NCBI RefSeq assembly: GCF_001488575.1
Contig: NZ_LN831302.1
Coordinates: 1,984,001 to 2,048,000 of the forward strand
Direction: 5' to 3'
Length of the DNA: 64,000 nucleotides
From: Halobacterium hubeiense
GTDB lineage: Archaea; Halobacteriota; Halobacteria; Halobacteriales; Halobacteriaceae
The notes beneath the pieces are model-generated. The model worked only from the letters and a program-made list of their open reading frames with translations. It ran no database searches and was not told where the DNA came from. Shown here in pieces: positions 43,129-57,733 of this stretch (the first letter of the stretch is position 1; every line of letters begins with the position of its first letter). The position numbers were made by a program, and so were the translations under genes.

Positions 43129-44304
43129 TCAGAAGATATTCGCCTGCCGATACACGGAGATACCCTGGTGGGTAATCTCGTAGGGCTTGGTCTCGCGGGA
43201 GTGGTTGGCGTCCCGAATCTTCTGAATCTCGACGGCGAGCCGCGTCTCCCGGAAGTCCTCGGGGCGGATGTAGCGGAGGACGACGACGGCGTCGGTGAGG
43301 TACTCGATGATGCCGTGGCGGGAGGCGAAGGGGTTGTCCTCTGAGGCTTCGCTGGTGAGCATCGTGGTGACGCCGGCGTCCTTGAGCGCTTTCGTGAAGT
43401 CGTAGATTTCGGTGCGGCGCACGGATTGGTCGTCGTACATCATCTCCAGCAGGGAGACGGAGTCGAGGACGAGGCGGCTGGCGCCGAACTCCTCGACGAG
43501 CCGCGGGAGCTCGTTGCGGATGCTGGTGAGGGAGTTGGCCATCTCGATCGGGTCGATGTCGATGACGGCGAGGTTGCCTTCCTCGGTGTGGCGGTCGAAC
43601 TCCCAGCCCTTCTCGGTGGCGCTCTGGACGACGCGCTGGCGGGACTCCTCTAAGGTGATGTAGACGGCGCGCTCGCCGTTCTGGATGGCTTCGTGGAGGA
43701 ACTGGAGGCCGAACGTGGTCTTCCCGGTGCCGGCGCCGCCGATGGCGACGATGAGCGAGCGCTCGGGGACGCCGCCCTGCACCATCTCGTCGAGCCCCTC
43801 GATGCCGAAGTCGATGCGCGGGATGTCCGAGTCGTACTCTTCTTCCTCCTCGAAGCCGCCGGGACCGCCCGCGCCGACGTCGCCGTCGAGGTCGAACCCG
43901 AAGTCGTCCTCACCGCCTGGTGCGGCAGCACCGGCGCCGCCACCGCCGCCGAACGCCGCCGCGAAGTCGTCCTCGAAGAGGTCGTCGTCCTCGCTGCCTC
44001 CGCCCGAGGGCTCACCGCCACCGCCGAACGCCGCCGCGAAGTCGTCGACCTCGCTCTCGGGACCCGGCTCGACTCCGTCCTCGGGCTCGGCCGGCGTCGG
44101 CGACCCCGCGGTCGGCTCGTCGGACTCCGACGCTGCCTCGCCGAACGATTCCGGCGGCTCGGCTGTCTCCTCACCGGATTTGGACTCCAGCGGCTCGGCT
44201 GTCGGCGCCTCCGATTCGGCGTCGGACGGCTCCTCGTCGCTGTCCGTCTCGGTCTCCTCCGCGAAGGCTTTCTCGAACCAGTCTTCGTCGTCCTCGTCAG
44301 CCAC
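43129..44304 (-). CDS. KaiC/RadA-superfamily ATPase with long acidic N-terminus (HTR-like)
   Basis: 391 aa from the GTG at 44304 (no ATG is available upstream without antisense sequence). Residues 1-160 are low-complexity Asp/Glu/Gly/Ser. Residues 165-391 are a KaiC-like RecA domain: Walker [14 protein letters not shown] (about 188-200), Walker B RLVLDSVS (about 277-284), and the [15 protein letters not shown] entry. The N-terminal part repeats [11 protein letters not shown] (residues 87-97 and 112-122), and an earlier DWFEKAF looks related. A signalling ATPase that may bind a partner through these motifs; the partner is unknown. The dispersed repeat begins right after its stop. Confidence 0.8.
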
Positions 44305-54775: not shown

Positions 54776-54781
54776 GCCGGC

Positions 54782-56395
54782 TCATTCGCTGCGGAGGCTG
54801 ACGAACGGCGGACTCGGCTGGAGCGTGGCCGCGCGGCTGGCGCTGTCATCGCTCGTCGGTGTCCGGCGGCGCTCGACCGCGAGGGCGTCGGCGTCCTGGG
54901 AGACCGCGACCACTTGGTCGGCGGCGCCCGCGTAGAACGCCGCGAGCGTCTCCGGGACGGAGTCGCCGACGACGTTGAGGACGGTGTCGCGGCTGCCGAA
55001 GACGCCGTCGTCGTTCTCGTAGCGGGCGGCCCGCGCGTCCGCCTCACCGAGTATCTCCACTTCTCCCGCGATGTTCCCGACGACGAGCAGCGGCGCGTCG
55101 CGGCGCGCGGCCGTCGTCTCGTTGGCGGCGGCCAGCGACGACTCCCGGAGGTCGAAGACGTTCCGGCCGTCGGGCCAGCCGCCGAACGGGTCGAGAACGA
55201 ACAGTCGGTCGTCGCCGAGCGCGTCCACCAGGGAGTCGTCGGCGGCCGCGAACGCGTCCGCGAGCGTTCCGCGGTCGAGCGTCGGCGGCGGCGTCAGCGA
55301 CACCGCCGTCCCCGAGGCCGCGGCCGTCGCGACGAGTTGGGCGAGCAGGCCGTCGACCGCATCGGTGGCCGCGTCGTATCGGAGCACCGCCTGCCCGCCG
55401 ACGACGAGGCCACCGCCGAGGAGGTCGTCCAAGCCGGGGACGCCCGTGTCCAGCGTGGGCGCGTCGGCTAGGCGGCTACGGCGGTCGGCGTCGGCGGCGG
55501 TGAGCACGCCCTCGACTTCCCCGAGCATCGCGGTCTGCTCGGAGCGCGCGTCGCGGATGGCGGCGACGTCGTCGTCGATGGCGGTCGCGCGCTCTGCGAG
55601 CGTCTCGCAGCGCTCTGCAACGGCTTCTGTGGTCTGAGCTTGGTCGTCGGTCGCCGTCGACACCGACGCGATACCGGCCGCGGTCTCCTCGACGGTCTCC
55701 GCCACCGCGTCGAGACTCGCCATGGCGTCGGCGGTCTGGTCGGCGCCGCGCTCGATTTCGTCGGCCGCCTCGTCGAGTTGGGCGACGGTCTCCTCGGTGG
55801 CCGCCCGGACGGCGTCGAGGGCGTCCTCGATGTCGTCGGCCTGCTCCTGTGACTCGGCCGCCAGCTCCTTGATTTCGTCCGCGACCACCGCGAACCCGTC
55901 GTTGTCGCCGTCCGTTCGCGCGGCCTCGATGGACGCGTTCAGCGCGAGCATGTTCGTCTGGTCGGCGATGCGGTCGATGCCGGCGAGCGCGTCCGCGATG
56001 CGGTCGATCCGGTCGCGGAGCGCGTCGACCTCCGCGACAACGTTCTCGCTCACCGTGCGGACGTCTTCCATGGTGTCGATGGCGTCCTGGGCGGCGTCGC
56101 GGCCGTCGGCTGTCTCGGCGGCCGCGCGCTCGCTCTGCTCACTGACCTCCGTCGCGGTCGCCGCGATCTCCTGGATGGTCGCGGACAGCGACCCGACCTC
56201 GTCGACGACCCACTCGGCGTCCGCGACCTGCTCGCTGGTCCGGTCGTCGATAGCGGCGAGCTGGTCGTCGACGGTCGTCGACGCGGCGTGGACGACATCG
56301 AGGGCGCCGTGAGCGTTAGCGAGCGACCGGTCCTCGGTCACCGCGACGGACGTGGCGTCGGCTTCGTCAGCCGGCGTGGGCTGGTCAGAACTCAT
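54782..56395 (-). CDS. Soluble transducer fused to a degenerate RecA/KaiC-like domain
   Basis: 537 aa from the ATG at 56395, no membrane helix. Residues about 25-300 are a methyl-accepting coiled coil with a CheA/CheW tip at 139-180 ([20 protein letters not shown]). Residues about 314-500 resemble the entry of KaiC-like ATPases: TLDTGVPGLDDLLGGGLVVGG, the position of Walker A being VLRYDAATDAVDG without GKT. LFVLDPFGG is a possible Walker B strand and APLLVVGN a later strand. It therefore probably cannot hydrolyse ATP but may bind a ligand or partner. The gene lies beside a PAS histidine kinase on the other strand. Confidence 0.8.
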   Translation of the reverse strand: MSSDQPTPADEADATSVAVTEDRSLANAHGALDVVHAASTTVDDQLAAIDDRTSEQVADAEWVVDEVGSLSATIQEIAATATEVSEQSERAAAETADGRDAAQDAIDTMEDVRTVSENVVAEVDALRDRIDRIADALAGIDRIADQTNMLALNASIEAARTDGDNDGFAVVADEIKELAAESQEQADDIEDALDAVRAATEETVAQLDEAADEIERGADQTADAMASLDAVAETVEETAAGIASVSTATDDQAQTTEAVAERCETLAERATAIDDDVAAIRDARSEQTAMLGEVEGVLTAADADRRSRLADAPTLDTGVPGLDDLLGGGLVVGGQAVLRYDAATDAVDGLLAQLVATAAASGTAVSLTPPPTLDRGTLADAFAAADDSLVDALGDDRLFVLDPFGGWPDGRNVFDLRESSLAAANETTAARRDAPLLVVGNIAGEVEILGEADARAARYENDDGVFGSRDTVLNVVGDSVPETLAAFYAGAADQVVAVSQDADALAVERRRTPTSDDSASRAATLQPSPPFVSLRSE

Positions 56396-56589
56396 GCGGT
56401 CCCCCTGTCGCCGCCGGCCGCGAGGCGACGCTCGCCGGCCGAGTCGTGGTTGTTGGTAACACGGCGTCATCGGAGGAGTTTTTCGCCATCCGACAAAACA
56501 GTTCCCACTCGGACAAAATATGCTAATCTACACGTCTTTCGTGGAGGTTTTCCACAGCACCCGAGACAATTGCCGAGATACGTAGACGT

Positions 56590-56597
56590 TTATCGCA
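56590..56597 (+). promoter_or_regulatory. TATA box of the histidine kinase gene
   Basis: tttatcgc lies about 29-36 bases before the GTG at 56626. A second AT block (cgaataacg, 56605-56613) would suit the ATG at 56638 as start instead. Confidence 0.45.
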
Positions 56598-56625
56598 TCT
56601 TCGTCGAATAACGAGTTGAGCAATC

Positions 56626-57681
56626 GTGGACGAACACATGGAGCAGTCCAGCGCGGACGCCGCGAGCCGGTACGCCCACCTCATCGAACACATCCAGGAC
56701 GCCGTGGTCGAGTTCGAGCTCGTCGGCGGCGACCCGGTCGTCCGCCGCGTCAACGAGGCGTTCGTCGACAGCTTCGGCTACGAGCGAGCCGCCATCGTCG
56801 ACGAACCGCTCAACGACTGGATCGTCCCCGAGTGGCTCCGCGAGGAAGCGCAAGCGCTCGACGAACGCACGTTCTCCGGGGAAATAAACTACCAGCGCGT
56901 CCGCCGAGAGACGACCGGCGGACTGCGGGAGTTCCTCTACCGCGGCATCCCGTACGCCGGGGACGGCGCGACCACCGACGGGTTCGCCGTCTACACCGAC
57001 CTGACGGACATCACGCGAACCGAACGCCGGCTGGAAGTGATGAACCGAGTGCTCCAGCACAACCTGCGGAACAAGGCCAACATCGTCCTCGCGTACACGA
57101 CCGAGCTGCTCGCGGAGTTCGACGAACAGCGCGCACACCGAACCGAAGCCGCCGCCCGCATCGAGGGGGCCGCCCGCGACCTCGAAACGCTGACCGGAGA
57201 AGCCGCAGACATCAATACCGTCCTAAAGTCCACCGCAGACGGCCGGACGACCGACTGCGTGCCCCTGATCCGAGACGTCGTCGACGAACACCGCCGCAAC
57301 TGGCCGGCAGCGAGCGTCGAGACTGACCTCCCCGCGTCGCTGGTCGTGCGCGCCAACCGTCGGCTCCGGTTCGCCGTCGACGCGCTCGTGGAGAACGCCC
57401 TCGAACACAACCCCAGCGACGAACCCAGTGTCCACGTGCGCGCTGCACCCGCCGACTCGGACGGGTGGGTGACCATCCGAGTCGACGACGACGGCCCGAC
57501 GATTCCCGACGACGAACGCGACGTCGTCACCGGCGACGGCGACATCACCGCCACCCGCCACGGTAGCGGCCTCGGGCTCTGGCTCGTCAAGTGGACGACC
57601 GAGCTGTTCGGCGGCGAACTCACGTTCGCGACCAGCGACCTCGGCGGCAACAGCGTCCGCCTTCGCCTCCCCAGCGCGTGA
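56626..57681 (+). CDS. PAS-domain sensor histidine kinase
   Basis: 351 aa from the GTG at 56626 (ATG 56638 possible). Soluble. PAS domain at about 15-137 (YAHLIEHIQDAVVEFEL...), dimerisation helix with phospho-acceptor His145 in VLQHNLRNKANIVLAYT. ATPase domain has N box (VDALVENALEHNPSDEPS), and G boxes VDDDGPTIPDDERDVV and GSGLGLWLVKWTTELFGG. No receiver domain. A cytoplasmic redox or light PAS sensor is possible; the ligand is unknown. Cognate response regulator not adjacent. Confidence 0.9.
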   Translation: MDEHMEQSSADAASRYAHLIEHIQDAVVEFELVGGDPVVRRVNEAFVDSFGYERAAIVDEPLNDWIVPEWLREEAQALDERTFSGEINYQRVRRETTGGLREFLYRGIPYAGDGATTDGFAVYTDLTDITRTERRLEVMNRVLQHNLRNKANIVLAYTTELLAEFDEQRAHRTEAAARIEGAARDLETLTGEAADINTVLKSTADGRTTDCVPLIRDVVDEHRRNWPAASVETDLPASLVVRANRRLRFAVDALVENALEHNPSDEPSVHVRAAPADSDGWVTIRVDDDGPTIPDDERDVVTGDGDITATRHGSGLGLWLVKWTTELFGGELTFATSDLGGNSVRLRLPSA

Positions 57682-57733
57682 CCGCACGCCATCACCGACA
57701 AAACCAAACAGGTCGACCACCGATACGTGAACA

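Follow-up and report, generated by a model that had tools for sequence, protein, structure and literature searches.

A conserved haloarchaeal chemotaxis transducer joined to an inactivated KaiC-fold domain

Gene organization of the locus

The window, that is the whole stretch of 64,000 nucleotides analysed here, encodes on its minus strand a soluble methyl-accepting chemotaxis protein (MCP) whose hairpin is followed by an inactivated KaiC domain (iKaiC); the protein is hereafter referred to as the fusion. A PAS-histidine kinase is encoded divergently from it. The features of the locus are the following:

54782..56395, minus strand: MCP-iKaiC fusion gene, 537 amino acids, with the ATG at 56395 and the stop codon at 54784-54782
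55466..56374, minus strand: soluble MCP hairpin, residues 8-310 (helices 8-160 and 167-310), placed by the MCPsignal match, the full-length model and hydropathy
56156..56185, minus strand: predicted methylation site SATIQEIAAT, residues 71-80, a motif conserved in homologues
55856..55981, minus strand: signalling tip, residues 139-180, the CheA/CheW-contact region, placed by residues invariant in 26 homologues
54785..55471, minus strand: C-terminal inactivated KaiC-fold domain (C-domain), residues 309-537, placed by predicted structure, Foldseek and profile comparison
55349..55378, minus strand: P-loop position, residues 340-349 (YDAATDAVDG), without Walker A, from a family-wide motif check
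55010..55102, minus strand: invariant polar patch, residues 432-462 (R432, G440, N441, E445, E451, R455, N461, D462), each identical in 43-44 of 44 members
56626..57681, plus strand: divergent PAS-histidine kinase (clade A), 351 amino acids; of the 45 genomes with the fusion, 29 have a PAS-histidine kinase adjoining it

An earlier note on this DNA had read the open reading frame as a soluble MCP followed by a KaiC-like domain, and the gene, running from 56395 to 54782 on the minus strand with its stop codon included, is as it described. The start is backed by the orthologue in genome G014, which is 97% identical in the MCP part and 88-89% in the C-domain: it begins with the identical MSSDQPTPADE, and the bases upstream diverge. 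This shared start, together with 43 intact homologues elsewhere, rules out a frame error or a chimera.

A soluble chemoreceptor hairpin

Pfam MCPsignal (PF00015) matches residues 100-266 of the fusion (E = 4.4e-33), and no further Pfam domain was found above the cut-off in the C-terminal part. The full-length model contains an antiparallel hairpin and matches solved or modelled chemoreceptors (2ch7 and 9a69, probability 1.00) and also KaiC. The signalling tip at residues 139-180, which the earlier note had called complete, is indeed canonical: N153, A154, S155, I156, A158, A159, G167, F168, V170, V171, A172 and E174 are invariant in 26 homologues. The methylation motif [ASTG]2xx[EQ]2xx[ASTG]2, predicted from sequence, is found at residues 71-80 in all 26 of these.

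No transmembrane segment was found in the fusion protein (maximum 19-residue hydropathy 1.43), nor was an N-terminal sensor domain, the first helix of the full-length model beginning at residue 8. The stretch of about 130 residues that the earlier note counted between the tip and the KaiC domain is no loose linker; it is modelled as part of one continuous helix (residues 167-310), and the KaiC fold begins at residue 310 directly after this second helix. Since the protein possesses neither an N-terminal sensor nor a membrane segment, the KaiC fold after the descending helix is the only candidate input domain.

Cytoplasmic chemoreceptors carry C-terminal domains such as CZB and PAS; the fusion has a KaiC fold instead. 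Its topology, a hairpin and then a candidate input domain at the C-terminus, is that of the bacterial TlpD-type receptors, which have a C-terminal ligand-binding domain. Cytoplasmic chemoreceptors of class V likewise have the MCP hairpin first and a C-terminal input domain (PMC9680633), and the archaeal survey in which they are described reports unidentified C-terminal domains on chemoreceptors and leaves KaiC unmentioned in its text. In Halobacterium salinarum, the cytosolic transducers Htr11 (Car), Htr13 and Htr15, which bind CheW2 preferentially (PMC3579733), are soluble MCPs like the fusion and belong to a chemotaxis system of the same type, but a KaiC-fold domain was not found in any description of them.

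A KaiC-fold domain that has lost its ATPase motifs

A structure prediction of the C-domain, built from 26 homologues, has a mean pLDDT of 90.6 and a pTM of 0.89, and displays the KaiC/RecA fold that had been suspected from the DNA. Searched against the PDB with Foldseek, the model matches KaiC, the KaiC-like proteins PH0186, PH0284 and PH0321, and RecA/Rad51-type structures (E about 1e-9 to 1e-8, probability 1.00). In a profile search against PDB sequences the top match is KaiC (8zn5, E = 7e-4) and the best eight are all KaiC. The RecA-like alpha/beta core is present, as judged from both the profile and the predicted fold.

The entry motif TGVPGLDDLLGGG lies at residues 317-329, and DAATDA, at residues 341-346, occupies the P-loop position, so that the replacement of the P-loop GKT pointed out in the earlier note is real. 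A Walker A motif (GxxxxGK[ST]) was found in the C-domain of none of the 44 intact family members. In the profile alignment the catalytic Glu pair of KaiC falls on Pro/Thr, and the Walker B Asp position falls on Asn441, present in 43 of 44 members; a forced global alignment and the strand order of the model indicate that Asn441 likely replaces the Walker B Asp. Walker A, Glu pair and Walker B Asp, which mark an active KaiC ATPase, are thus all missing, the latter two as judged by profile alignment, and I infer that the C-domain is unable to hydrolyse ATP.

Thirteen residues are identical in all 44 intact members (D402, W407, N412, R432, G440, E445, E451, R455, N461, D462, D470, N474 and Y488), and N441 and Y459 are nearly invariant. 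The invariant patch at residues 432-462 lies partly in a lower-confidence loop of the model. One reading of this pattern is that the domain has rebuilt its site, without the Walker A lysine, to bind a nucleotide (a second messenger, or ATP/ADP) whose level it would sense while leaving it unhydrolysed. The retained KaiC/RecA fold, and the invariant charged and polar patch that follows the strand carrying Walker B, would fit such a site; however, all three catalytic elements are gone, and conservation within the domain is lowest at the P-loop segment, where insertions reach about 20 residues, which makes this reading improbable.

It is very unlikely that the KaiC part is a decaying relic, a non-functional tail on the receptor. 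In most pairs its dN/dS does exceed that of the MCP part (0.32 versus 0.10 between the window and G014), one copy has an internal stop (in genome G130) and another is internally deleted (in genome G372), but dN/dS is well under 1 in all pairs (0.08-0.32 in seven close pairs), and about 15 residues are invariant or nearly so across 14 genera. The invariant residues and the low dN/dS argue that the domain is maintained for a retained function, which, as far as sequence can tell, is most likely something other than ATP hydrolysis.

Origin of the C-terminal domain

I compared the C-domain with the KaiC-related families of haloarchaea. In profile-profile comparison its full length aligns with domain II of the tandem KaiC proteins found in haloarchaea (E = 1.3e-45), whereas active KaiC domains match weakly and over the first ~95 residues. 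Domain II of the tandem proteins (e.g., L011, L014 and L059-L061) shares with the C-domain the motifs D...W....NV, R-x-D, R..RYE(D/E), D and FY..A..Q, as well as the C-terminal hairpin SP..PP(F/Y)-x-R(V/L). It differs in its setting, as it follows an active KaiC domain (GGPGTGKS), where the fusion has an MCP hairpin. From these profiles and motifs, the C-domain is derived from domain II of the tandem KaiC proteins. The P-loop is already absent from that domain II, suggesting that Walker A was probably lost before the fusion to the MCP.

Kinship with DUF7504 (PF24336), a comparison that the earlier note had suggested, is ruled out: a Pfam match is absent, and the hhalign profile-profile probability is 0.07%, in effect zero. 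MEDS (PF14417) stays below the Pfam cut-off, with weak matches in two of ten members (best E = 0.008); no DUF835 (PF05763) match was found in the C-domain, and the KaiC Pfam cut-off is not reached either.

Inactivated KaiC domains, among them MEDS and DUF835 and the combinations iKaiC-REC and HalOD1-iKaiC, are an established signalling module of archaea (PMC5847659). As tabulated there (Table 2, citing Makarova et al. 2017 mBio), iKaiC is a KaiC fold without ATPase motifs in archaeal signalling proteins, and the C-domain, with its KaiC ancestry, lost ATPase motifs and attachment to a signalling domain, belongs with these. The tabulated domains are joined to REC, PAS or HalOD1, or sit on histidine kinases; the partner in the fusion is an MCP hairpin. 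The earlier proposal that this is a new type of module therefore holds in part: iKaiC modules as such were already known (PMC5847659), but none is described on a chemoreceptor in the literature surveyed. No description of an MCP-iKaiC joining was found in that literature, to which Makarova et al. 2017 (10.1128/mBio.01959-17) did not belong.

Distribution and history of the family

The C-domain was used as query against 391 genomes of the class Halobacteria. The MCP-iKaiC fusion is found in 45 genomes, 14 genera and 4 families (all matches with E up to about 1e-33), and is intact in 44 of the 391 genomes, or about one in nine of the haloarchaeal species sampled, the G130 copy being the one with the internal stop. 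Carriers include Haloarcula, Halomicroarcula, Halorientalis, Halorhabdus, Halobellus, Halosimplex, Haloferax, Salinibaculum, Salinadaptatus, Halonotius, Halorubrum and Halohasta. The matches examined between E = 1e-25 and 1e-9 have an active KaiC domain (GGPGTGKS) and then a degenerate second one. The fusion is therefore far from confined to a single genome, as it occurs in 44 others, in 43 of them intact; a soluble chemotaxis transducer joined to an ATPase-dead KaiC/RecA-fold domain, as first proposed from the letters alone, is conserved across haloarchaea.

CheA was found in 43 of the 45 fusion genomes, and CheB in the remaining two. Among fusion-less genomes of the window's family, 15 of 24 have CheA and 9 of 24 are without a CheA match (Fisher p = 2e-5 in comparison with the fusion genomes, uncorrected for relatedness). 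Together with the conservation of the tip and the presence of the methylation motif in 26 of 26 homologues, this co-occurrence points to a working chemotaxis transducer as the most likely role.

The family tree splits into two subfamilies, subfamily 1 with 31 members (including the broken copy of G130) and subfamily 2 with 14. Both the window gene and the orthologue from G014 fall inside the Haloarcula-type clade (support 100/100). In the window's genus, the fusion is present in 2 of 13 genomes and absent from 11, and the genes that flank it, for a peptidyl-prolyl isomerase and a ferredoxin-like protein, are direct neighbours in 9 of the 11 other species, with roughly 50-140 bp between. This nesting, the sparse presence and the adjoining flanks suggest that the genus probably acquired the fusion by lateral transfer, at a site that differs among its species. 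At this variable site (54776-57733 in the window) the fusion and the PAS-histidine kinase stand in two genomes, the window's and G014; two species (L163, L164) have there a gene for a cytochrome-oxidase-like protein of ~600 amino acids.

Two damaged genes were also observed. Genome G372 has an internally deleted MCP-iKaiC remnant (L177, 1536-1820), in which roughly the first 70 residues run into roughly the final 94 of the C-domain; it lies directly 5' of a clade-B PAS-histidine kinase, and intact fusions of subfamily 2 stand at two loci of the same genome. In the window's own genome, an MCP homologue (L006, G000:C1:1328082-1328963) has an in-frame TGA in the matched stretch, and is possibly a pseudogene.

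Neighbouring genes and candidate partners

A PAS-histidine kinase is the immediate neighbour of the fusion, usually directly downstream, in 29 of the 31 subfamily 1 genomes, and is adjacent in none of the 14 subfamily 2 members. It is co-directional and downstream in Haloarcula, Haloferax and others, and in the Haloarcula group its frame abuts or slightly overlaps the stop codon of the fusion, in an operon-like manner. In the window and in G014 the kinase is divergent, with 230 bp between the starts, and in G112 it lies tail-to-tail. The kinases of these three genomes belong to a different clade from the co-directional ones, which suggests that the association with the fusion probably arose more than once. 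In G014 the kinase gene (L108, 2268-3249) is frameshifted, residues 1-47 and 69-351 being in different frames.

The kinase clade of the window, clade A, occurs in 34 genomes, just 9 of which have the fusion, and the clade-B kinase also stands without the fusion in several genomes, weakening the idea of a dedicated partner kinase for the window gene. As both clades occur alone, the functional link between fusion and kinase is suggestive only; these lone kinases, and the kinase-less loci of subfamily 2, speak against an obligatory role of the kinase.

The C-domain could alternatively be a docking platform for the PAS-histidine kinase or for an active KaiC-like ATPase, comparable to KaiC/SasA, and report the state of its partner to the chemoreceptor array. 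KaiC folds commonly work through protein contacts, one of the PDB matches (6x61) is the CI domain of KaiC bound to SasA, and the kinase adjoins the fusion in three arrangements with kinases of two clades. On the other hand, subfamily 2 shares the invariant residues although it lacks an adjacent kinase, kinases exist without the fusion, and the Foldseek match to 6x61 reflects the KaiC fold rather than an interface. I regard docking as possible, if clearly short of probable. The fuller proposal is that a PAS-histidine kinase, or an ATPase of the KaiC type, docks on the dead KaiC domain and thereby passes its own state on to the chemotaxis array. This is rather unlikely; if true, it would place a direct junction of KaiC-type, two-component and chemosensory signalling in a receptor family not recognised so far.

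A specific partner had been put forward in the earlier note, namely the second KaiC-like gene of the window (43129-44304), which I identified as TIGR03880 (KaiC_arch_3) with an acidic repeat N-terminus. Some 11 kb separate the two genes in both the window and G014, which is all that would favour a partnership of the C-domain with this ATPase; outside the genus they are not near each other, the TIGR03880 gene is found in 66 of the 69 genomes tested with or without the fusion, and in two fusion carriers (G082 and G242) it stays below the E-value threshold. The co-occurrence check lends the partnership no support, and I regard it as very unlikely.

An ammonium transporter (Amt) gene is found upstream of the fusion, in divergent orientation, in Haloarcula, Halomicroarcula, Halosimplex, Salinibaculum and one MAG (L062-L068, L074, L079 and L080, about 3 to 4.6 kb in each), and in L079 a GlnK-like stretch is joined to the Amt frame. 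In Haloferax, Halorientalis, Halonotius and the window no Amt was seen next to the fusion, so ammonium sensing is mentioned here only as an idea.

Proposed role and significance

I consider it likely that the fusion is a cytosolic chemotaxis transducer with an inactivated KaiC domain as its input. The coiled-coil hairpin (residues ~8-310) would dock on CheW/CheA and be adapted through CheR/CheB methylation, and the C-domain (310-537), recruited from the ATPase-dead second domain of tandem KaiC proteins and itself devoid of ATP hydrolysis, would serve as the sensory module. It may bind an intracellular small molecule, or else a protein partner, at the invariant patch, and the resulting conformational change could pass straight into the descending helix and alter CheA activity. 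In one large subfamily, the fusion would act in the pathway of the PAS-histidine kinase encoded beside it. The input function, the binding at the patch and the action of the kinase with the fusion are the inferred parts of this scheme.

The fusion is a real and conserved receptor type of haloarchaea; what appears new, against the literature surveyed, is the joining of MCP and iKaiC, with the domain traced to a particular KaiC subfamily. It would add a class of input domain to the chemoreceptors, one in which an MCP puts an ATPase-dead KaiC domain to new use, for sensing or for docking, and offers a testable entry into the proposed role of archaeal KaiC-like proteins as signalling hubs. Several of the carriers, Haloarcula and Haloferax species among them, are in culture, which makes the function of this receptor accessible to experiment.
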